Virus record (IMG/VR): IMGVR_UViG_3300027741_000213
Location: 1 to 28,046 of that record
DNA length: 28,046 bases
Source of the DNA: a virus
Strand: one strand, 5' to 3'
Part shown: positions 3,695 through 23,398 of the stretch, in pieces
Numbering within the stretch: the stretch's first letter is position 1
Layout of the letters: each line of letters starts with the position of its first letter
The notes under the pieces: generated by a model
Told to the model about the DNA's origin: nothing
Seen by the model: only the letters and a program-made list of their open reading frames with translations
The model's database searches: none
Position numbers and translations under genes: made by a program

Positions 3695-4579
3695 ATGGAA
3701 AAAAATATCAGCCAAGTCCTCAAAGAAGCCACAAAGGATATCCTAACAGAAGACGTCCTTAAGGAAATTCAAGAAGCCTTTGATGCTTCAGTTAGCGAAA
3801 AAGTCGCCCTTCACGTTGAGAAGGCTTTAACTGAGCAGGATGAAGATTATGCTAAGAAGCTCGAACATCTTCTTGAGGCCCTTGATGCCGACCACACAGC
3901 CAAGCTCAATAAGGTTGTTACGGCTTTAGACGCTGATCGCACAAACAAGCTCAAGACTGTTATTGAGAAGTACGAAACAGCTCTTACAAATGAAGCTGCT
4001 AATTTTAAAAACACATTAGTTGATCAGGTTTCAAATTATCTTGATCTCTATCTCGAAGAAAAGATTCCCGCTACAGAAATCCAGGAAGCAGTCAACAACA
4101 AGCGTGCTAACTCCGTTCTTGATGAAATTCGTGGTATCCTTGCCGTTGATATGGCTCTTGCACAAGAGTCAATTCGTGAGGCTGTAGTTGATGGTAAGAC
4201 AAAAATTGATGAAGCTGCTGGTCAGCTTGAAGTCGCTAATAAGCGTGTTTCCTCCTTAACCGAGGAACTAAACAAAGTTAAGTCTGCTCTTATTCTCGAG
4301 CAAAAGGTCTCAAGCCTTGATGACGAGAAGAAGGCTTATATGAAGAAGATGCTTGGTACAAAGAGTGCTAAGTTCATTGCTGAAAACTTTGATTATACTC
4401 TCGGTTTATTTGAGAAGACCGAAGAAGAGCGACTCAATAGCCTCAAGAACGAAGCCATCAATGAATCTGTTGCAACAACAGTTGATCGCCCCGTTATCGA
4501 GGAATCCGTTACCAAGACAGTTGAAAGCGAAGAAGCTCCAATCTTCAACGTTTACATGTCAGAGCTTGGTAAGTATTAA
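3695..4579 (+). CDS. gp22: Prohead core scaffolding protein, gp22-like
   Basis: A 294-residue, strongly helical, Lys/Glu-rich protein with long coiled-coil potential: residues about 40-110 repeat 'ALDADHTAKLNK' and 'ALDADRTNKLKT', and residues about 150-210 form another helix. T4 gp22 (269 residues) builds the internal scaffold around which gp23 assembles and is destroyed by gp21. The location immediately before the capsid gene and after the protease fits. The C-terminus contains a short Thr/Val/Glu-rich tail ending 'NVYMSELGKY', as in T4-like gp22 proteins. It starts 6 nt after a late octamer. There are several (I/L)xE sites, compatible with proteolysis. Confidence 0.88.
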   Translation: MEKNISQVLKEATKDILTEDVLKEIQEAFDASVSEKVALHVEKALTEQDEDYAKKLEHLLEALDADHTAKLNKVVTALDADRTNKLKTVIEKYETALTNEAANFKNTLVDQVSNYLDLYLEEKIPATEIQEAVNNKRANSVLDEIRGILAVDMALAQESIREAVVDGKTKIDEAAGQLEVANKRVSSLTEELNKVKSALILEQKVSSLDDEKKAYMKKMLGTKSAKFIAENFDYTLGLFEKTEEERLNSLKNEAINESVATTVDRPVIEESVTKTVESEEAPIFNVYMSELGKY

Positions 4580-4597
4580 TTTTTATTAAAAGGATTT

Positions 4598-4616
4598 AAA
4601 GGAAAGATTTTCCTTT
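4598..4616 (+). promoter_or_regulatory. Hairpin in the gp22-gp23 spacer
   Basis: Perfect 8-bp inverted repeat AAAGGAAA/TTTCCTTT with a 3-nt loop, followed about 10 nt later by a smaller palindrome GGGTATTACCC. No T-tract follows, so it is not a classical terminator; it could be an mRNA-stabilising or processing structure upstream of the capsid gene. The 105-nt spacer has no obvious late octamer. Confidence 0.5.
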
Positions 4617-4684
4617 GCTAGTTGAGGGGTATTACCCTTGAACAGTAATTATAGGTCGACACAAACGAAAGAAATATTAAAACT

Positions 4685-6181
4685 ATGTCAAATATTCGTC
4701 CCTCACAGTCTTACATCGATGTCAATCGCGCACAGGCTCTCTTAGAAAAGTGGAACCCAGTTCTTAACTATACTTCTGAGAACGTCGCCGCAATTGAAGA
4801 CGATCACACACGTCTCAATACCGCCATCCTCCTTGAAAACCAGGAGAAGTGGTGCTTTGAGGCTAATAATGCATCAGGTGGTACAGGTGGTGTTTTCAGT
4901 GGTGGTACAATTGGTGCCGGTAATTACGGTAACCAGTTCCCTTCACAGAACGACAGCTCTTACGCTCCTGGTGATGCTCGTCTTCCAAAGATTCTCATCC
5001 CGATGATCAGACGTACATTCCCTGAGCTCATCACTAACGAAATCGTTGGTGTTCAGCCCATGAGTGGTCCAGTCGGACTCGCATTTGCACTCCGTTATAA
5101 GTACGAAGGTACACCTCTCGGTGCTACCTCTTCTGGTCTTGATGCCTCTGGTGCAAGCCCTGCTGGTCCTCAGCAGGCTCTTGCCAACACAGGTACCGAA
5201 CTTGGGTATCAATATCTCGATTCTCGCTTCACCGGTACATCCGCTGGCGCGCTTTCAGGTCTTGGTACAAACTCTGCATTCCCTATTCCTGCACAGGATC
5301 AGGGTGTTGCTCAGCTCCTTAGCCAGTTCGAACTCACATCCAACATTCCTCAGATCGTTGTCTCCTTCGAAAAGACAGCAGTTGAAGCCGGTACACGCCG
5401 TCTTGCAGCTCGCTGGTCTGTCGAACTCGAGCAGGATCTTAAGAACATGAACGGTATCGATATCGATACTGAGCTCACAAACGCTATGTCTTATGAGCTT
5501 CAGGCCGAAATCGACCGTGAAATGATCATCCGTATGGTTCAGACAGCTCTCAATGCCGGCTACGGCACTGGGTACTCCATCTGGTCCCCTGCTTCCGCAG
5601 ACGGTCGTTGGTTGGTTGAGCGTAATCGTGACTTCTATCAGAGACTCATCATTGAGGCTAACCGTATTGCCGTTCGTAACCGTCGTGGTGCCGCTAACTT
5701 CATCGTTGGTACACCTCGCGTTTGCGCAATCCTTGAAATGCTCCCTGAATTCCAGTGGGTACCTGTTCAAGGTAACGTCAACACACAGCCCGTTGGTGTT
5801 GCAAAGGTTGGTTCGCTTGCCGGCCGTTTCAACGTCTACCGTGATACACGTACAGAAGCTCAATACGAAGCTAACGCCGGGGGTAACCTTGGTGGTAAGA
5901 ACGGATTCCCATCCGGAACAACTCGTACTGCTCGCCTCGACTACGCCCTTCTCGGTTATAAGGGTCCTGAGTTCTATGACACCGGTATCATCTACTGCCC
6001 ATACATCCCTGTTATGGTTCAGAGAACAATCGGTCCTAACGACTTCAGTCCCCGCGTTGGATTGCTTACCCGCTATGGTGTTGTCGATAATATCTTTGGT
6101 GCAAACCTCTATTATCACGTCATCATCCTCCAGGGTCTTGGCACGGCGTTTACGCCTTCCACTCAGTCGGTTTATTTTTAG
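4685..6181 (+). CDS. gp23: Major capsid protein, gp23-like
   Basis: A 498-residue HK97-fold major capsid protein of the T4 gp23 family (T4 521 residues). Recognisable parts are 'PKILIPMIRRTFPELITNEIVGVQPMSGPVG' (given here only by its ends: PKILIPMIRR near residue 101, VGVQPMSGPVG near 121), the 'ARWSVELEQDLK' segment near 242 and a C-terminal region with 'YCPYIPVMVQRTIGP'. The N-terminal prodomain has a candidate gp21 site, L49-L50-E51. Codon use differs from most neighbours: many C-ending codons and CGT/CGC arginines, as expected for the most highly translated gene. The start is 105 nt after gp22. A strong terminator follows. Confidence 0.95.
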   Translation: MSNIRPSQSYIDVNRAQALLEKWNPVLNYTSENVAAIEDDHTRLNTAILLENQEKWCFEANNASGGTGGVFSGGTIGAGNYGNQFPSQNDSSYAPGDARLPKILIPMIRRTFPELITNEIVGVQPMSGPVGLAFALRYKYEGTPLGATSSGLDASGASPAGPQQALANTGTELGYQYLDSRFTGTSAGALSGLGTNSAFPIPAQDQGVAQLLSQFELTSNIPQIVVSFEKTAVEAGTRRLAARWSVELEQDLKNMNGIDIDTELTNAMSYELQAEIDREMIIRMVQTALNAGYGTGYSIWSPASADGRWLVERNRDFYQRLIIEANRIAVRNRRGAANFIVGTPRVCAILEMLPEFQWVPVQGNVNTQPVGVAKVGSLAGRFNVYRDTRTEAQYEANAGGNLGGKNGFPSGTTRTARLDYALLGYKGPEFYDTGIIYCPYIPVMVQRTIGPNDFSPRVGLLTRYGVVDNIFGANLYYHVIILQGLGTAFTPSTQSVYF

Positions 6182-6190
6182 CCTGTATCT

Positions 6191-6205
6191 CCTTGTACTA
6201 CAAGG
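6191..6205 (+). other. Short palindrome after the capsid stop
   Basis: CCTTGTA, one base, TACAAGG: a 7-nt inverted repeat 10 nt past the stop codon, foldable as a 5-bp stem with a 5-nt loop. It sits upstream of the true terminator hairpin. Confidence 0.55.
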
Positions 6206-6241
6206 ATTTATAATAAAAATACACAAAAGTCAAATAAAGAG

Positions 6242-6272
6242 CCTCGCGAAGAAATTCGCGAGGTTTCTTTTT
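6242..6272 (+). terminator. Intrinsic terminator of the capsid gene
   Basis: 9-bp perfect GC-rich stem CCTCGCGAA/TTCGCGAGG with a GAAA tetraloop, followed by TTTCTTTTT. A clear rho-independent terminator that ends the head operon. Confidence 0.93.
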
Positions 6273-6306
6273 ATATATCAAACCTACAACGCAGACCGTT
6301 TACATG

Positions 6307-6314
6307 CATAAATA
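6307..6314 (+). promoter_or_regulatory. Late promoter CATAAATA of the GIY-YIG gene
   Basis: Late-type octamer exactly 5 nt before the ATG at 6320; the predicted start site is the A of the start codon. Confidence 0.72.
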
Positions 6315-6319
6315 TTCTT

Positions 6320-7102
6320 ATGAAAGAATATCTGTTATATATTACGAAGAACAATATCAATAACAAAATTTATGCAGGCAAACATATAGGGTACAAATCT
6401 GATTCATATATTGGCTCAGGCCCAACTTATTTTCTCAAAGCAGTCAAAAAATATGGCAAAGAAAACTTTACACGTAGATGGCTTAAAATCAGAATCAATA
6501 CAGAAGAAGATTTAAATAGACTCGAACGTCGATTAATTCGTATACTCAAGCATTATTGGAGAAATAATTGTTATAATATTCATGAAGGCGGAACAGGTGG
6601 TGATCCTTGTAAATATTTTTCTTACTATACTAGACAGGAGATTAATAAGCGTATTTCTGAAAGTAAGAAACGACAATATGAACGAGGTCAAACCTATAAT
6701 CAGTTGATTGGTAGAAAAAAACAAAGCATTACATTAATCACAAAAAATAATCGAAACGGTGACTTTTATAACGAAATGCTAAAAAAGCAAAAAGATAAAG
6801 GTCGTCGCCTATCTATTCGAATAAAGGAACAGGGTCTAACGGAGAAAGAAAAACAAAGAAACCATGCTAATATGCTTAACGGTAAATATAAGCTCGAATA
6901 TACTATTACCTTACCAGATGGTACATCATTTACATATAAGCATAACTCTAGAAATTTTATGCGTATGCATAATGTAGAAGGACATATATTTGCAATAATA
7001 AACAAAAAAGGTGAATACAGGGTTAACCGTAGAACAGTTAAAACAAAGCATAATTACCCTGTAGGTACTATATTTAAAATGATTAAAATATTTGTACGCT
7101 GA
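6320..7102 (+). CDS. Free-standing GIY-YIG homing endonuclease (Seg-like)
   Basis: A 260-residue protein with an N-terminal GIY-YIG nuclease domain: 'YLLYIT' (residues 4-9) and 'IYAGKH' (17-22) form the two signature strands, followed by 'YIGSG', a helix 'FLKAVKKYGKENF', and a Glu-containing helix 'LNRLERRLIRIL' that should supply the metal-binding Glu. After 'NIHEGGTGGDP' comes a NUMOD3-like basic segment 'INKRISESKKRQYERG', typical of DNA-binding tails. The rest is basic and Asn-rich. T4 carries related Seg endonucleases between conserved genes, where they spread into phages lacking them. It lies between the capsid terminator and the next virion gene, with its own late promoter, and has higher A+T than its neighbours, consistent with mobility. 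Confidence 0.9.
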   Translation: MKEYLLYITKNNINNKIYAGKHIGYKSDSYIGSGPTYFLKAVKKYGKENFTRRWLKIRINTEEDLNRLERRLIRILKHYWRNNCYNIHEGGTGGDPCKYFSYYTRQEINKRISESKKRQYERGQTYNQLIGRKKQSITLITKNNRNGDFYNEMLKKQKDKGRRLSIRIKEQGLTEKEKQRNHANMLNGKYKLEYTITLPDGTSFTYKHNSRNFMRMHNVEGHIFAIINKKGEYRVNRRTVKTKHNYPVGTIFKMIKIFVR

Positions 7103-7695: not shown

Positions 7696-8622
7696 TTACT
7701 GGCCCATTGTCTTCTTTGTATAGACGTTCGTATTAATCAACTTATCAGGGATCAGGTCATTCCTACTAGCACGAGTAGGGTTAATATCTAACGACCCACG
7801 ACGTGAATAAAGAAGTGTAACACAACAATCAGATACTTCTTCATGAGACATAATGACATTGTAAAGCTTCTCAGCACAAAATTCATGAAATTCATTAACC
7901 TCACGCAATGAGGCAATTTGCTTAAAGAGTGATGTAGGTTTAACTCTAAACCCATTCTTTGTTACAATATGAATGTATGCTGCACCGGTATCCTTCTGCT
8001 TAGTGTGACGGCAGCGTGAGCGAAGAGCATTTGTAAACCACTTATCAGATACAGGTTCACTATCTTCAGGATTAATTTTATAAAATTCTAGATGATCTTG
8101 CTGAGCAGAATAATCAGTTACCTCGATAGTATTAGATACATCTAATAGCTCCCAAAAGAGATCCTTATAATCATTAACAGGATCAAAAGAACGCTCATCA
8201 GAACCTGATTCATAAAATTTAACCTGTACGGGTGTTCCGATAACTTGTGTGAGATCGTCGGTAATTTGTTGTTCGTAATTACTAATAGCTTCACGAACCG
8301 TGTCACCCATCTTACACATATCAAAAGAATTAAAGTAAAGCTTGGCTGACTTTGACTCTACCATAAATTCAGAGCTCGATGGGTATGTATATTTTACAGT
8401 ACCAGCAATAGGGTAACCGTTATTAAGAAGAAACGTCGCTTCATGACAATGCCAGGTGTCAAATCCTACAAACTCATCTCCCTTAATACCGTGATCCTGT
8501 CGAGCAAGAATACGAGGCATGGGATTGAGAAGTGACGGATCAAACTTCTCCGTATAAACGGCATATGAAGCTGATGATCCTAGTGTTTTAGATGCAATAT
8601 CGGTTAGGTTGGTTGTTGACAT
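7696..8622 (-). CDS. queF: NADPH-dependent preQ0 reductase QueF (7-cyano-7-deazaguanine reductase)
   Basis: A 308-residue long-form QueF (E. coli type, about 282 residues) that reduces the nitrile of preQ0 to the aminomethyl group of preQ1. The QueF motif 'ESKSAKLYFNSF' is at residues 89-100. The catalytic half has 'LRSRCRHTKQKD', with the expected thioimide Cys (C204) and Asp (D211), H246-E247 in 'EFHEFC', and the C-terminal signature 'LYSRRGSLDINPTR'. All key residues are present, so the enzyme should be active. It is the last gene of a five-gene minus-strand operon, 4 nt after the kinase gene. In a phage with a DpdA-like transglycosylase, the likely product is preQ1 for DNA modification, though tRNA queuosine supply is also possible. 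It ends before a bidirectional terminator. Confidence 0.95.
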   Translation of the reverse strand: MSTTNLTDIASKTLGSSASYAVYTEKFDPSLLNPMPRILARQDHGIKGDEFVGFDTWHCHEATFLLNNGYPIAGTVKYTYPSSSEFMVESKSAKLYFNSFDMCKMGDTVREAISNYEQQITDDLTQVIGTPVQVKFYESGSDERSFDPVNDYKDLFWELLDVSNTIEVTDYSAQQDHLEFYKINPEDSEPVSDKWFTNALRSRCRHTKQKDTGAAYIHIVTKNGFRVKPTSLFKQIASLREVNEFHEFCAEKLYNVIMSHEEVSDCCVTLLYSRRGSLDINPTRASRNDLIPDKLINTNVYTKKTMGQ

Positions 8623-8626
8623 AAAT

Positions 8627-9181
8627 TTAATTTAGCTTTAGTTTAATCGCTTCCATTCGCTCTTCAACTGTTCCTTTTAGTCGAACGAGTTTATTTTTTA
8701 ATAAATTATCCCCATATGAAACAATTACTTGTTCAAATGTTTCAATTATCTTATTACGAAATTCTACATCTACGCTTCTCTCCCCATCATCAACAAGCGC
8801 TACATCATACGGGTCTGTATAAAAAACTACATCATACATTGGTATAAGCTTCTCAAAGACATGCTTACTGTAATCAAATACCCACTTAGATACACTACCC
8901 TCTATGTGAAGATACCCTGTATAACATACACCATCGAGAATACAGCGATCAAATATAGCCCCCTTTGTCTCCCTAAATCTCAGTACATTCTCAATATGTT
9001 TATTAATAATTAGACACTGAGTCAAACCTGTACCCTGCTCATTAATCGGCACATTAAACTCCCTCCTGACAAGTCTAGTCACCTCCGGAACATACTCGTA
9101 TCGATCACCATAATGATCCCTACATGCAGTTAATAATGTACTCTTGCCCGTTGACTGAGCACCTGAAAAACTTATAAGCAT
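8627..9181 (-). CDS. P-loop kinase/ATPase of NadR (AAA_28) type
   Basis: A 184-residue P-loop protein. Walker A is 'GAQSTGKST' (residues 7-15), followed by 'VPEVTRLV' typical of the NadR-like group, 'IFDRCILDGVCY' (D78-R79, the DRxxxD-type motif) and a lid-like 'DDGERSVD' near 131. These are the hallmarks of the NadR-type ribosylnicotinamide kinase or deoxynucleotide-kinase-like family; the substrate cannot be read from sequence. It is inside the modification operon between the DUF1599-type gene and queF, suggesting it handles a nucleotide, a modified base precursor or its phosphorylated form. Alternatives are a nucleotide-salvage kinase or an NAD-related kinase. No Shine-Dalgarno is visible. 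Confidence 0.82.
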   Translation of the reverse strand: MLISFSGAQSTGKSTLLTACRDHYGDRYEYVPEVTRLVRREFNVPINEQGTGLTQCLIINKHIENVLRFRETKGAIFDRCILDGVCYTGYLHIEGSVSKWVFDYSKHVFEKLIPMYDVVFYTDPYDVALVDDGERSVDVEFRNKIIETFEQVIVSYGDNLLKNKLVRLKGTVEERMEAIKLKLN

Positions 9182-9196
9182 ACTATTATTGTAGTA

Positions 9197-9544
9197 TCAC
9201 TTCGCCCACTTGCTACGATTAACAATCTCAGCAATAATACTATAAACAGAAATATCTAAAAAAGCATCAAAGACAGATTCATTAGCTGATTCGAGACTGT
9301 TCTTTCTAAGAACAAGATTAATCAAACGCTGTAATTTATCATTAAGTCTTACAACAATAGCTGATATGGAAGCTTTCCTCTCTTCTGCGGTATTTAAAGA
9401 AGAGCCGAGTGAAATATTCCCCGGACCATAATCAAACTGCTTCTTACAAAATGTAAGATAGTGATCGTGCTGAATCTTCTTAAACTCTGCACAAGTCAGA
9501 GGGTATTGTGTTTCAATTGCGTTTACTATTTCGTCTATGCTCAT
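9197..9544 (-). CDS. DUF1599 / nucleotide-modification-associated (Nmad1-like) protein
   Basis: A 115-residue all-alpha protein. Segments 'FDYGPGNISLG' (37-47), 'RLNDKLQRLINLV' (66-78) and 'SVFDAFLDISVYSII' (90-104) match what I remember of the DUF1599 family, named 'nucleotide modification associated domain 1' because it occurs with phage hypermodification genes. The biochemical role is not established to my knowledge; the fold has been compared with all-alpha NTP pyrophosphatases, which would fit removal or steering of a nucleotide pool. A TTG 9 nt upstream (9553) is in frame, but the ATG at 9544 is the better start. The gene overlaps the formyltransferase end by 32 nt, indicating tight co-expression. 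Confidence 0.78.
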   Translation of the reverse strand: MSIDEIVNAIETQYPLTCAEFKKIQHDHYLTFCKKQFDYGPGNISLGSSLNTAEERKASISAIVVRLNDKLQRLINLVLRKNSLESANESVFDAFLDISVYSIIAEIVNRSKWAK

Positions 9545-10088
9545 AATTGTCAAAAAACTTATACCATACAGCGCTAGCTAGAGAATGGAGACCTCTAATA
9601 ACTTCTTCTTCTGTTAAACCCTGAATATTAATTGCATGATCGTGTATGATTTTACCGGCATCTACCTCTGGTACAACTTCATGTATAACAACACCGGCTA
9701 TCTTATGACTAGCTTGTACAGCTCGTACTTGTGGATCCTTACCCCTAAGCTCAGGGTACATTGTTATAAGACCAGGGTGTAAATTATAGATCTTATACTT
9801 CTTACAAATCTCTTTTGGAATTATTCTAAGATAACCGTGAAGAGTAATAAGTGGATCCTTAAACGGTTTTAATGCCTTCTTATAATCACTAACAGAAGGG
9901 TTCTTAGGTATTACTACCCAATTCAACTTACCTTCATTAAGCAAATTTTTCAAGTGTGGCTCAATACCCTCAATACCTTGTCTATTAGTAATAATAGCAT
10001 CAGGGATACGGTTGTAATGAACTATTAAATTGGTTATCTCAGAACCTGTTCGGCTAAAGAATACAATCCAAGGATAATCTATCGACAT
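9513..10088 (-). CDS. PurN-like formyltransferase
   Basis: A 191-residue formyl_transf_N domain protein that would move a formyl group from 10-formyl-tetrahydrofolate to an amine. The catalytic triad of the family is intact: N102 and H104 in 'YNLHPGL', and D143 in 'EVDAGKI'; the linking segment 'YPELRGKDPQVRAV' is typical of GART-type enzymes. PurN itself has about 200 residues, so it is a single-domain enzyme, not a methionyl-tRNA formyltransferase (no C-terminal OB domain). It overlaps the dpdA-like gene by 10 nt. Next to dpdA and queF the most attractive substrate is the aminomethyl group of preQ1, free or in DNA; this is inference. A purine-synthesis role is the alternative. Confidence 0.88.
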   Translation of the reverse strand: MSIDYPWIVFFSRTGSEITNLIVHYNRIPDAIITNRQGIEGIEPHLKNLLNEGKLNWVVIPKNPSVSDYKKALKPFKDPLITLHGYLRIIPKEICKKYKIYNLHPGLITMYPELRGKDPQVRAVQASHKIAGVVIHEVVPEVDAGKIIHDHAINIQGLTEEEVIRGLHSLASAVWYKFFDNYEHRRNSKRN

Positions 10089-10897
10089 AAAATTTTCTTA
10101 AACATTTTAGTATTATAATCTATAATTTCCATCTCATCCTTTGTAACTTCGTGATCAATTAAATCAGCTAGTTTTGTAGACGGTTTTGTTGGTAAACCAT
10201 AATCAGCATCGTACCGTAATCCATGCAATGCTGCAACAATAGGGTTACTTGTATCACAGCTTACAATATTAAAGATATTGTGATTAATGTAATAGCGGAA
10301 TTCTTTAGCTAAAGAGCAGCCAAGTAGATGATGTGGTTTATTCCAATTCCAAATACCTTTTTCAATGAGCTGACTAATAAAACGCTGACGACCGGTGCAC
10401 CATTGATCAAGCTTCGTATAACCTTCACCTGTTGTATTATAATATGAAAAATCAAAACTAATAGCAATTATATCAGCATGATCGGACATAAACTTATAAC
10501 AATCTATAAGCTCCTGCCAGGTTTTACCCTGTACCGCACCAATTGCTTTTGTTATGCAATGTTGCTTAATTTCTGTAATTCGTCCTGTTGATATCCACTC
10601 TACATAACTCCTTCTAGTCTGTTCACTATCTTCAAGAACATCCGGTACAATAAACATATTCGGCTTAAGATCGATAGTAGCATTAAAGAACTTTTCACTA
10701 TCAAACGCATGACCTAGTTCAAAGATTGAGTTATCAAGAAGAACCTCTCTGTTATATACCTCTCGCGCTGTCTTAAAATATTGATAATATTTTGGATGTG
10801 ATTCAAAGAGATGCACTAAAGCATAATCAAAATCATTATAAAGTGTTGAAGTCTGTAGAATCGAAATCGGTGATTCATGTGATACTTTAATTAGCAT
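10079..10897 (-). CDS. dpdA: DpdA-like DNA-guanine transglycosylase (TGT superfamily)
   Basis: A 272-residue protein with a degenerate TGT TIM-barrel pattern: 'LLDNSIFE' (53-60; D55 aligns with the Asp of DSGGFQ), 'VPDVLED' (84-90), 'AVQG' (121-124, like GIVQG), 'ISFDF' (146-150), 'LLGC' (191-194, like GGLAVGE) and 'CDTSNP' (214-219; D215 placed like the catalytic nucleophile). Canonical TGTs are about 370 residues with a Cys3His zinc site, absent here, so it fits the shorter phage DpdA subfamilies rather than tRNA TGT. Such enzymes exchange guanine in DNA for a 7-deazaguanine. It is the first gene of the operon with queF and a formyltransferase. I see no clear promoter in the 36-nt divergent spacer to the gp5-like gene. 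Confidence 0.82.
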   Translation of the reverse strand: MLIKVSHESPISILQTSTLYNDFDYALVHLFESHPKYYQYFKTAREVYNREVLLDNSIFELGHAFDSEKFFNATIDLKPNMFIVPDVLEDSEQTRRSYVEWISTGRITEIKQHCITKAIGAVQGKTWQELIDCYKFMSDHADIIAISFDFSYYNTTGEGYTKLDQWCTGRQRFISQLIEKGIWNWNKPHHLLGCSLAKEFRYYINHNIFNIVSCDTSNPIVAALHGLRYDADYGLPTKPSTKLADLIDHEVTKDEMEIIDYNTKMFKKILCR

Positions 10898-18515: not shown

Positions 18516-18747
18516 AAATAAATTTAATGAAATTTTAGAAGCGTTCGATGGTACGGCTCCTGGACTCTCACCAAAGCAGGTAGCTGGTATAAGAACTACA
18601 AGTCAAGGAATGACGAATGGTGATAATAATACTGCGACATTTAATCAACCTAAAGAAATAGATGGCAACTTTCTCCCATCTAGAAAGCAAATTATAGCAC
18701 AGAGAAAAAAAAAGAAACGGAAATCATTCTTCCCAAGGAAAGACTAG
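18505..18747 (+). CDS. Small basic hypothetical protein
   Basis: An 80-residue protein starting at the ATG at 18505, which overlaps the stop of the preceding gene by 11 nt; an upstream in-frame ATG at 18466 would give 13 more residues but lies deep in the previous gene. The N-terminus 'MRFENKFNEILEAFDGTAP' is helical and the C-terminus is very basic ('RKQIIAQRKKKKRKSFF'), suggesting nucleic-acid contact. The N-terminal tract 'FNEILEAF' contains an I-L-E site and resembles the short tags on other late proteins here. Its 3' end overlaps the convergent phosphoribosyltransferase gene by 24 nt. Confidence 0.65.
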   Translation: MRFENKFNEILEAFDGTAPGLSPKQVAGIRTTSQGMTNGDNNTATFNQPKEIDGNFLPSRKQIIAQRKKKKRKSFFPRKD

Positions 18748-19191
18748 CCAGCAATCTGAAGGAAATTTTTCAGCATAGTAGTCAGGTATAAATTTTGTAT
18801 CTTCTTTTATACAAAGAGTAGCTACCCGAATATTTTCTAGACCATATTGATGTTTGAGAAGATCAACAATATGAAGTAAAGTGTCTCCGGTATCAGAAAG
18901 ATCATCCACAACGAGTACGTTTTTACTCTTATAATTGCAAATATCTACCCCTGGATCCTGAAAGGCAACGAAACCACTTGTATGTAAATTATCGTCAGTA
19001 TAGCTCTGAATAGTATAATTAAAAAACGGCTTAACGTTAAATTTATAAGCCATAAGGACAGCTGGAATCAACCCACCTCTACCAACGCCTACTATAGCAT
19101 TAGGTATATAATCAGCATCAATTAATTGCTGTTCAATTACAGAAAGATTATGATGCACATTATGCCAGTGCACGTGACATTGTTTAGACAT
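18724..19191 (-). CDS. Purine-type phosphoribosyltransferase
   Basis: A 155-residue type I phosphoribosyltransferase. The PRPP loop is 'VLVVDDLSDTGDT' (residues 92-104), preceded by the 'GVGRGGLIPAVLMAY' loop (35-49) and ended by 'DCWLVFPWEE', the C-terminus seen in Gpt/HGPRT-type xanthine-guanine phosphoribosyltransferases. It would join a purine base to PRPP to give the nucleoside monophosphate. In a phage with 7-deazaguanine genes it could salvage guanine released by base exchange; that link is inference, as the gene is 8 kb from the operon. Start choice: the only ATG compatible with family length. No late octamer or Shine-Dalgarno is visible upstream. Confidence 0.85.
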   Translation of the reverse strand: MSKQCHVHWHNVHHNLSVIEQQLIDADYIPNAIVGVGRGGLIPAVLMAYKFNVKPFFNYTIQSYTDDNLHTSGFVAFQDPGVDICNYKSKNVLVVDDLSDTGDTLLHIVDLLKHQYGLENIRVATLCIKEDTKFIPDYYAEKFPSDCWLVFPWEE

Positions 19192-23164: not shown

Positions 23165-23230
23165 GTCTCTATTACATTTTCCTGCATTACCCTTCATCCA
23201 TCTACCGGCCCAGAAGGTTTTCTTTACAAG

Positions 23231-23301
23231 CTACCCCGCATGGATTTGAACCATGAATGTCAGTGCCAAAAACTGAAGTGTTACCGTTACACCACAGGGT
23301 A
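23231..23301 (-). tRNA. tRNA-Gln (anticodon TTG)
   Basis: Complete cloverleaf on the minus strand: acceptor TACCCTG/CGGGGTA (one G-T pair), D stem GTGT/ACAC with a GG-containing loop, anticodon stem TCAGT/ACTGA with loop TTTTGGC, T stem CATGG/CCATG with loop TTCAAAT, discriminator G. CCA is not encoded. Confidence 0.92.
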
Positions 23302-23325
23302 AGTTAAATCCGGAAGTTAAAATGG

Positions 23326-23398
23326 CTGCCGAGGTAGGATTTGAACCTACGACCTAGGAGTTAACAGCTCCCCGCTACTACCGCTGAGCTACTCGGCA
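23326..23398 (-). tRNA. tRNA-Asn (anticodon GTT)
   Basis: Complete cloverleaf on the minus strand: acceptor TGCCGAG/CTCGGCA, D arm with AGCGGTAG loop, anticodon stem GGGAG/CTCCT with loop CTGTTAA, variable AGGTC, T stem GTAGG/CCTAC with loop TTCAAAT, discriminator G, no encoded CCA. Its GUU anticodon is of the queuosine-modified class. Confidence 0.94.

Follow-up and report, generated by a model that had tools for sequence, protein, structure and literature searches.

By what means certain phages exchange all the guanines of their DNA is an unsettled question, and it is raised by a five-gene cassette on the window, a 28,046-nucleotide stretch of viral DNA (IMG/VR record IMGVR_UViG_3300027741_000213) that is a fragment of a genome. 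Judged by their sequences, the enzymes of the cassette are relatives of known enzymes (Table 1). Most likely, the cassette makes an altered guanine and places this base in the phage DNA. We regard it as likely that it represents a DpdA3-type 7-deazaguanine DNA-modification module with a preQ1-derived product, a judgement that concerns the module and its product and leaves the possible nucleotide-level step aside.

Table 1. Genes of the cassette and a phosphoribosyltransferase gene on the window
Feature	Position	Strand	Remarks
DpdA3-type guanine transglycosylase (predicted)	10079..10897	-	272 aa, compact TGT barrel, no zinc site
GART/PurN-fold formyltransferase, candidate (d)preQ1 formyltransferase (DpdN-like)	9513..10088	-	
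Nmad1 (DUF1599) small helical protein	9197..9544 (or TTG start at 9553)	-	
AAA_28 P-loop kinase (NadR / thymidylate-kinase-like), candidate dNMP kinase for modified nucleotide	8627..9181	-	
QueF, bimodular, predicted NADPH-dependent preQ0 -> preQ1 reductase	7696..8622	-	
Xanthine/guanine-type phosphoribosyltransferase	18724..19191	-	Pfam Pribosyltran 3e-17; XGPRT model 4e-20, below cut-off

An earlier note on this DNA had described a compact minus-strand operon with overlapping genes, which is borne out by the coordinates of the reading frames and by the recurrence of the cassette. All five reading frames are open and complete on the minus strand (7696-10897), and adjacent genes either overlap or are separated by gaps of 4-15 bp. 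The five genes recur in identical order at about 106 IMG/VR loci (some contigs being counted twice), a four-gene version that keeps the order is found at many more, and homologues of the transglycosylase are encoded on more than 540 IMG/VR stretches. Because the gene order recurs across IMG/VR loci, the cassette is not a chance arrangement. The cultured Flavobacterium phage vB_FspM_immuto (MW353175-7, immuto in the following) encodes dpdA, the formyltransferase, the kinase, and queF in the same order as the window (44%, 40%, 31%, and 35% identity, respectively) but has no Nmad1 gene. The suggestion of a distinct five-gene variant is therefore true in a weak sense, the Nmad1 gene being the only extra.

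The AlphaFold (AF2) model of the transglycosylase has a pLDDT of 94.7, and the 30 best PDB matches found with Foldseek are all tRNA-guanine transglycosylases (TGTs; best E 5e-8, TM 0.68). The bacterial DpdA 7ui4 was also matched (E 2e-4). As modelled, the protein has the TGT-type (beta/alpha)8 barrel and falls inside the TGT superfamily, in agreement with its initial reading as DpdA-like. The residues named in that reading are present and conserved; across 36 DpdA-like sequences, D55, D86, G124, and D215 are invariant and Q123 is almost invariant. Judged by motif, D55, D86, and D215 would correspond to D102, D156, and D280 of the TGTs. The CxCx2C...H zinc site of tRNA TGTs is absent from the translated sequence, as had been said before.

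The transglycosylase clusters with the protein of the Campylobacter firehammervirus CP220 (43% identity over 95% of the length) and not with DpdA1 (phage 9g) or DpdA2 (phage 7-11). The latter are TGT-related phage transglycosylases as well, but their sequence kinship to the window protein is weak, and the phage 9g and 7-11 groups were not among its matches at E 1e-3. The CP220-type proteins form the subfamily named DpdA3. Protein charge was considered as a hint of DNA binding and dropped, the difference in median pI (5.6 for DpdA3, 6.3 and 6.9 for DpdA1/2) being too weak. In CP220, a kinase of the same family as that of the cassette (36% identity) adjoins the transglycosylase gene but, unlike in the window, neither a formyltransferase nor QueF is encoded beside dpdA. 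For Campylobacter phages, dADG has been described as the modified base (PMC6884629), and in the Campylobacter firehammerviruses every dG is reported to be replaced by a 7-deazaguanine (PMC10273834, citing Crippen 2019).

QueF matches the NCBIfam QueF (4.9e-50) and Pfam QueF_N (6.6e-23) profiles, scoring below the NCBIfam equivalog cut-off (171 vs 293 bits), and the Vibrio QueF structure 3bp1 (2e-76). Its catalytic residues C204, D211, H246, and E247, already listed as complete in the earlier note, are invariant in 16 sequences together with the ESKSxKLY NADPH motif. The preservation of these residues and the match to Vibrio QueF make the proposed preQ1-type base reasonable. Plain preQ1 is however an incomplete description, because the formyltransferase argues for N-formyl-preQ1. 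The latter enzyme matches Pfam Formyl_trans_N (1.7e-14) and GART structures in the PDB (6.5e-18), and its Asn-x-His...Asp residues (N102, H104, and D143) are invariant in 18 sequences. With its catalytic residues intact, the altered base is probably formylated preQ1 rather than plain preQ1. DpdN is the name of a dPreQ1 formyltransferase, of which the cassette protein is a candidate relative.

The formyltransferase could instead be an auxiliary enzyme of purine synthesis (PurN), in which case the DNA base would be plain preQ1. Its best solved matches are GAR transformylases, and dpdA, kinase, and queF remain in relatives that do not have the formyltransferase gene. However, dpdA is immediately followed by this gene in the majority of loci, its product scores 49 bits, far under the PurN cut-off of 150 bits, and among the named phages of the phage collection this type is found with dpdA only in immuto, while a fifth formyltransferase match in the collection, MT836440, resembles bacterial PurN. 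A role in purine synthesis is thus unlikely. It is far more improbable still that the cassette raises the queuosine content of host tRNA and does not modify DNA. Although QueF and preQ1 feed tRNA queuosine and the phage encodes a Q-type tRNA (tRNA-Asn with a GTT anticodon), the transglycosylase does not have the tRNA-TGT zinc site, and its nearest counterparts come from phages whose DNA is reported to be fully modified, and neither a nucleotide kinase nor a formyltransferase has a role in tRNA queuosine synthesis.

The assignment of the small protein to DUF1599 had to be shifted to other evidence. The window protein itself is below the Pfam cut-off (E=0.017, 15.9 bits vs 25 bits), and its presumed membership in the Nmad1 (DUF1599) family is based on the scores of its relatives (1.8e-4 at best) and on the structural agreement with Nmad1 proteins in BFVD. 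It also matches phrog_1485 (1.2e-11), and a PDB fold search gave no match. Comparison with MazG/PRA-PH profiles gave no match, nor did the positive control of MazG against PRA-PH, and Pfam MazG was not found in the contigs of 19 relatives. The small protein could not be tied to the MazG-type pyrophosphohydrolases, the profile comparison being uninformative in view of the control, and this counts against the nucleotide route considered below.

In the proposed pathway, preQ0 would be made by FolE, QueD, QueE, and QueC, whose genes lie at other places in genomes of this kind, and would be converted to preQ1 by QueF. The DpdA3 transglycosylase would swap guanine for preQ1, and the formyltransferase would formylate the aminomethyl arm, yielding 2'-deoxy-7-(formylamino)methyl-7-deazaguanosine. 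Replacement of guanine may be whole or large-scale and would shield the phage DNA from host nucleases, and the guanine freed by DpdA might be salvaged by the phosphoribosyltransferase. The analysis shows the gene content, the folds, the conservation of catalytic residues, and the linkage, from which the chemistry, the sequence of the steps, and how far guanine is replaced are deduced. The earlier note had the base or its precursor taken from the host. This is unsupported, and host supply was rejected as the default, because long contigs of close relatives (DpdA 81-90% identical) encode FolE, QueD, QueE, and QueC at a distance of tens of kb from the cassette. In distant relatives these genes are inside the dpdA cluster. 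For example, immuto encodes QueD, QueE, and FolE near dpdA, and its cluster includes a phosphoribosyltransferase homologous to that of the window; preQ0 genes also adjoin DpdA1. The search for queC, queD, and queE beyond the window was thus successful in the long contigs of relatives, but QueC is absent from L006, a contig of 45.7 kb from the same virus (identity 99.995% across 20.8 kb) that is longer than the window yet still a fragment.

The NadR-type call for the kinase is in line with matches to Pfam AAA_28 (3e-16) and to NadR and thymidylate kinases in the PDB (6e-7 to 7e-6), and Walker A and the LID-like basic motif DDGxRS are conserved. Homologues are encoded within 5 kb of DpdA3 in 92 of 97 dereplicated loci and in none of 23 DpdA1/2 controls, the profile having been built from DpdA3-linked kinases and the loci not being independent because the cassette genes are co-inherited. 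A separate Walker-A scan found a P-loop protein in 104 of 129 IMG/VR loci and in all four named lineages, compared with none of 25 DpdA1/DpdA2 loci. The kinase is the partner that persists when the formyltransferase, QueF, or both are absent from the locus, which is new here. Among 50,697 phage records the kinase type is present in 21, all from Campylobacter or Flavobacterium phages and including every close DpdA3 record. In MA9V-3 and Youna2, P-loop proteins that have no BLAST kinship to the cassette kinase adjoin the distant homologues; a scan for relatives of the Youna2 type found none. Roughly 5% of the DpdA3 loci have no kinase. No such kinase is nearby in a clade of DpdA3 loci (L229, L239, L247, L255, and L268), nor in L072, and a T4-type dNMP kinase as a substitute was not found elsewhere in the kinase-less contigs. 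NTP-pyrophosphohydrolases adjoin dpdA in loci of the immuto type (in immuto a PRA-PH-type enzyme upstream of dpdA), and the DpdA3 loci examined contain no fusion protein joining DpdA3 to a kinase or pyrophosphohydrolase.

The association of the kinase with DpdA3 loci, and its absence at DpdA1/2, suggest that the base is exchanged on dGMP, followed by phosphorylation and polymerisation, in contrast to the accepted route at the DNA level. The P-loop proteins of MA9V-3 and Youna2 and the NTP-pyrophosphohydrolases beside dpdA point the same way. In such a route, dGMP and preQ1 would give d-preQ1-MP and guanine, and the cassette kinase and the host NDK would produce the triphosphate for the polymerase. 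We tentatively propose that the DpdA3 proteins are mononucleotide transglycosylases and that, through the usually adjacent kinase, a modified dNTP is used by the phage polymerase and not dGTP. In some lineages a dGTP-consuming pyrophosphohydrolase might assist, and the phosphoribosyltransferase might recycle the guanine. Exchange on free nucleotides before replication is a real possibility, and so, to a similar degree, is action of DpdA3 on finished DNA, as is assumed for DpdA1 and DpdA2, with the kinase and the pyrophosphohydrolase serving dNTP supply or being genes captured with the operon; we give the two routes about equal weight. Phages frequently encode nucleotide kinases and MazG-type enzymes that serve general dNTP supply. 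To our knowledge, every characterised TGT relative acts on nucleic acid, the solved relatives of DpdA3 all on tRNA or DNA, and the kinase is missing from some DpdA3 loci. DpdA is also classed in the literature as an enzyme acting at the nucleic acid level (PMC12783734). Points against action on finished DNA are that the kinase is linked to DpdA3 loci but absent beside the DpdA1/2 controls and that it persists without formyltransferase or QueF, and full replacement of guanine is more readily explained via the nucleotide pool. In the Z-genome (2-aminoadenine) the base is changed at the monophosphate, and phosphorylation and polymerisation follow (PMC12783734). The likeness to the nucleotide route is one of working only, because the enzymes are unrelated and PurZ builds the base on dGMP, whereas DpdA3 would swap it.

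The kinase linkage thus poses the direct question whether DNA or dGMP is the substrate of a transglycosylase family that is common among viruses in IMG/VR. If dGMP is used, an entire branch of the DpdA enzymes would be misfiled as DNA-modifying, and the cassette would be a self-contained gene set for a modified dGTP, of use in DNA chemistry. If true, the nucleotide route would account for the complete replacement of guanine and would be a guanine counterpart to the Z-genome pathway.

The five genes lie where the earlier note had placed them, as tightly packed and complete minus-strand reading frames, in a window that is an entire IMG/VR record (28,046 bases) and almost certainly a piece of a larger T4-like genome. 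Contigs of relatives reach 80-230 kb, and the same virus is also represented by a longer contig, L006 (45,750 bases, 99.995% identity across 20.8 kb). No near DNA match was found in 50,697 phage records. All 19 gene starts checked in the window (19/19) lack a Shine-Dalgarno core within 20 nt, a pattern known from phages of Bacteroidota. ATAAATA boxes, which resemble the T4 late promoter, lie mostly on the same strand just upstream of gene starts, with overall no excess over chance (17 against 15.8 expected). Because none lies inside the cassette, there is a hint that the cassette is not a late operon. The window also contains a homing-endonuclease gene and two tRNA genes (Table).

Features of the window and of sequences compared with it
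Feature	Location	Remark
DpdA-like transglycosylase	window 10079-10897	minus strand
Formyltransferase	window 9513-10088	minus strand
DUF1599-like (Nmad1-type) protein	window 9197-9544	minus strand
Kinase	window 8627-9181	minus strand
QueF	window 7696-8622	minus strand
Homing endonuclease (phrog_314)	window 6320-7102	1.3e-19; immediately follows major capsid gene
tRNA-Gln and tRNA-Asn	window 23230-23398	tRNA-Asn anticodon GTT, queuosine-type tRNA
ATAAATA boxes	window 740, 2983, 3682, 6308, 7106, 14780, 15022, 15056, 19607, 20453, 21628, 25776	
Second AAA_28 kinase	L172 (relative) 5830-6579	adjoins queE
Nmad1 relative	L275 (Microcystis phage Mel-JY01) 5791-6345	184-aa ORF
Rejected formyltransferase candidate	L276 (MT836440) 4417-4989	apparently an ordinary purN

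Pfam and NCBIfam searches with the 272-residue transglycosylase returned nothing meaningful. Its AlphaFold model is a confident barrel (pLDDT 94.7), and the structure search upheld its description as DpdA-like: the 30 best PDB matches are all tRNA-guanine transglycosylases (30/30, E from 5e-8), and bacterial DpdA (7ui4) is also a significant match. D55, D86, and D215 are invariant across 36 homologues. Among named phages, Flavobacterium phage immuto (44%) and the CP220-group Campylobacter phages (43%) carry its nearest relatives. In Campylobacter firehammerviruses dG is wholly replaced by 7-deazaguanine derivatives (PMC10273834), and the Campylobacter phage modification was given as dADG in a paper that recognised no DpdA there (PMC6884629).

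In the formyltransferase, a GART-family enzyme, N102, H104, and D143 are invariant. The DUF1599 protein is helical and of Nmad1 type, and the bimodular QueF, matched by Vibrio QueF at 2e-76, keeps all catalytic residues and the ESKSxKLY motif. The name DpdA3 for the transglycosylase subfamily reportedly comes from Cui et al. in 2023, who are also said to have described formyl-dPreQ1 and to have predicted a formyltransferase, DpdN. An Nmad1 relative in Microcystis phage Mel-JY01, which has no DpdA match, adjoins a SAM synthase and has an IMP dehydrogenase gene close by. MT836440 was rejected as a source of a phage formyltransferase; it resembles a bacterial chromosome fragment.

Single-sequence and profile scans gave 68 close loci and more than 540 family stretches in IMG/VR and three stretches of the transglycosylase family in bacterial MAGs, and a scan seeded with distant members gave 80 further loci. 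HMM searches found the order dpdA-formT-Nmad1-kinase-queF at 106 loci and the order dpdA-formT-kinase-queF at about 60, counted as loci and not as independent viruses, with certain contigs present twice. The Nmad1-bearing cassette is the commonest form among the IMG/VR loci fetched, a sample ranked by likeness to the window. Locus L239 has a tandem pair of dpdA3 genes. The core cassette is already present and annotated in the cultured phage immuto; the present study adds the systematic kinase linkage and the precursor genes of relatives.

The cassette kinase matches NadR and thymidylate kinases. After dereplication at 90% identity, 92 of 97 DpdA3 loci have a homologue of it within 5 kb (21 of 26 loci after dereplication at 70%); none of the 14 DpdA1 and nine DpdA2 control loci has one. 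A scan for the Walker A motif alone, free of bias to the cassette kinase family, was positive at 104/129 DpdA3 loci and in 4/4 named lineages, and at 0/15 DpdA1 and 0/10 DpdA2 loci, a few of these controls being near-identical. The kinase still adjoins dpdA where the formyltransferase is missing (L043, L046, L049, L051-L053) and where both formyltransferase and queF are missing (L061, L065, L066, L068, L073, CP220). Only 21 records of the phage collection contain a kinase of this type; they are all from Campylobacter or Flavobacterium phages and include all 18 close DpdA3 records; the remaining three are two separate segments of phage IBB_35 and CC_R7, whose copy lies beside a dUTPase. In Chryseobacterium phage MA9V-3 and Weizmannia phage Youna2, the gene before the distant DpdA homologue encodes a P-loop protein (an AAA_18 protein and a weak match to thymidylate kinase) with no BLAST kinship to the cassette kinase. 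A second AAA_28 kinase is found next to queE in the window phage's relatives, and next to dUTPase in Campylobacter phages (L190). Also encoded near dpdA are a MazG/PRA-PH enzyme in immuto-type loci (Pfam 3e-10, PHROG 5e-28; for L161 and L191, the MazG-like sequences were picked out by motif and then served as seeds, so that their HMM matches are not independent), an HD-domain protein upstream in CP220, and an inorganic pyrophosphatase within the cassette of L059.

QueD and FolE are encoded in 12 and QueC in 13 of 18 long contigs of relatives, which also include QueE-like radical-SAM genes; for L172 the precursor genes were read completely. All four share a single cluster in the immuto-like branch, together with a PRTase and a PRA-PH pyrophosphohydrolase. 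The earlier proposal that the host supplies the precursor is therefore unsupported.

Because the kinase persists at dpdA whichever substituent is made, the substituent itself is probably not what it acts on, and a modified dNMP is its simplest substrate. This suggests that guanine would be exchanged on dGMP and the modified dNMP then phosphorylated by the kinase, a route comparable in logic to that of the 2-aminoadenine phages. The same persistence speaks against exchange by DpdA3 on the nucleic acid itself, which nevertheless deserves equal weight because the literature treats DpdA as acting on nucleic acid (PMC12783734), the solved relatives of the transglycosylase all act on polymers, and some loci do without the kinase. 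A T4-like clade with the gene set dpdA-formT-queF-queC (L229, L239, L247, L255, L268) and locus L072 have no cassette-type kinase near dpdA, and contig-wide searches found no substitute in them. The kinase position in this clade holds an 84-120-aa protein, DUF3310-like by eye. The modification module and its preQ1-derived product, which is probably formylated, are held with higher confidence than either route. Exchange on dGMP, if true, would explain the complete replacement of guanine.
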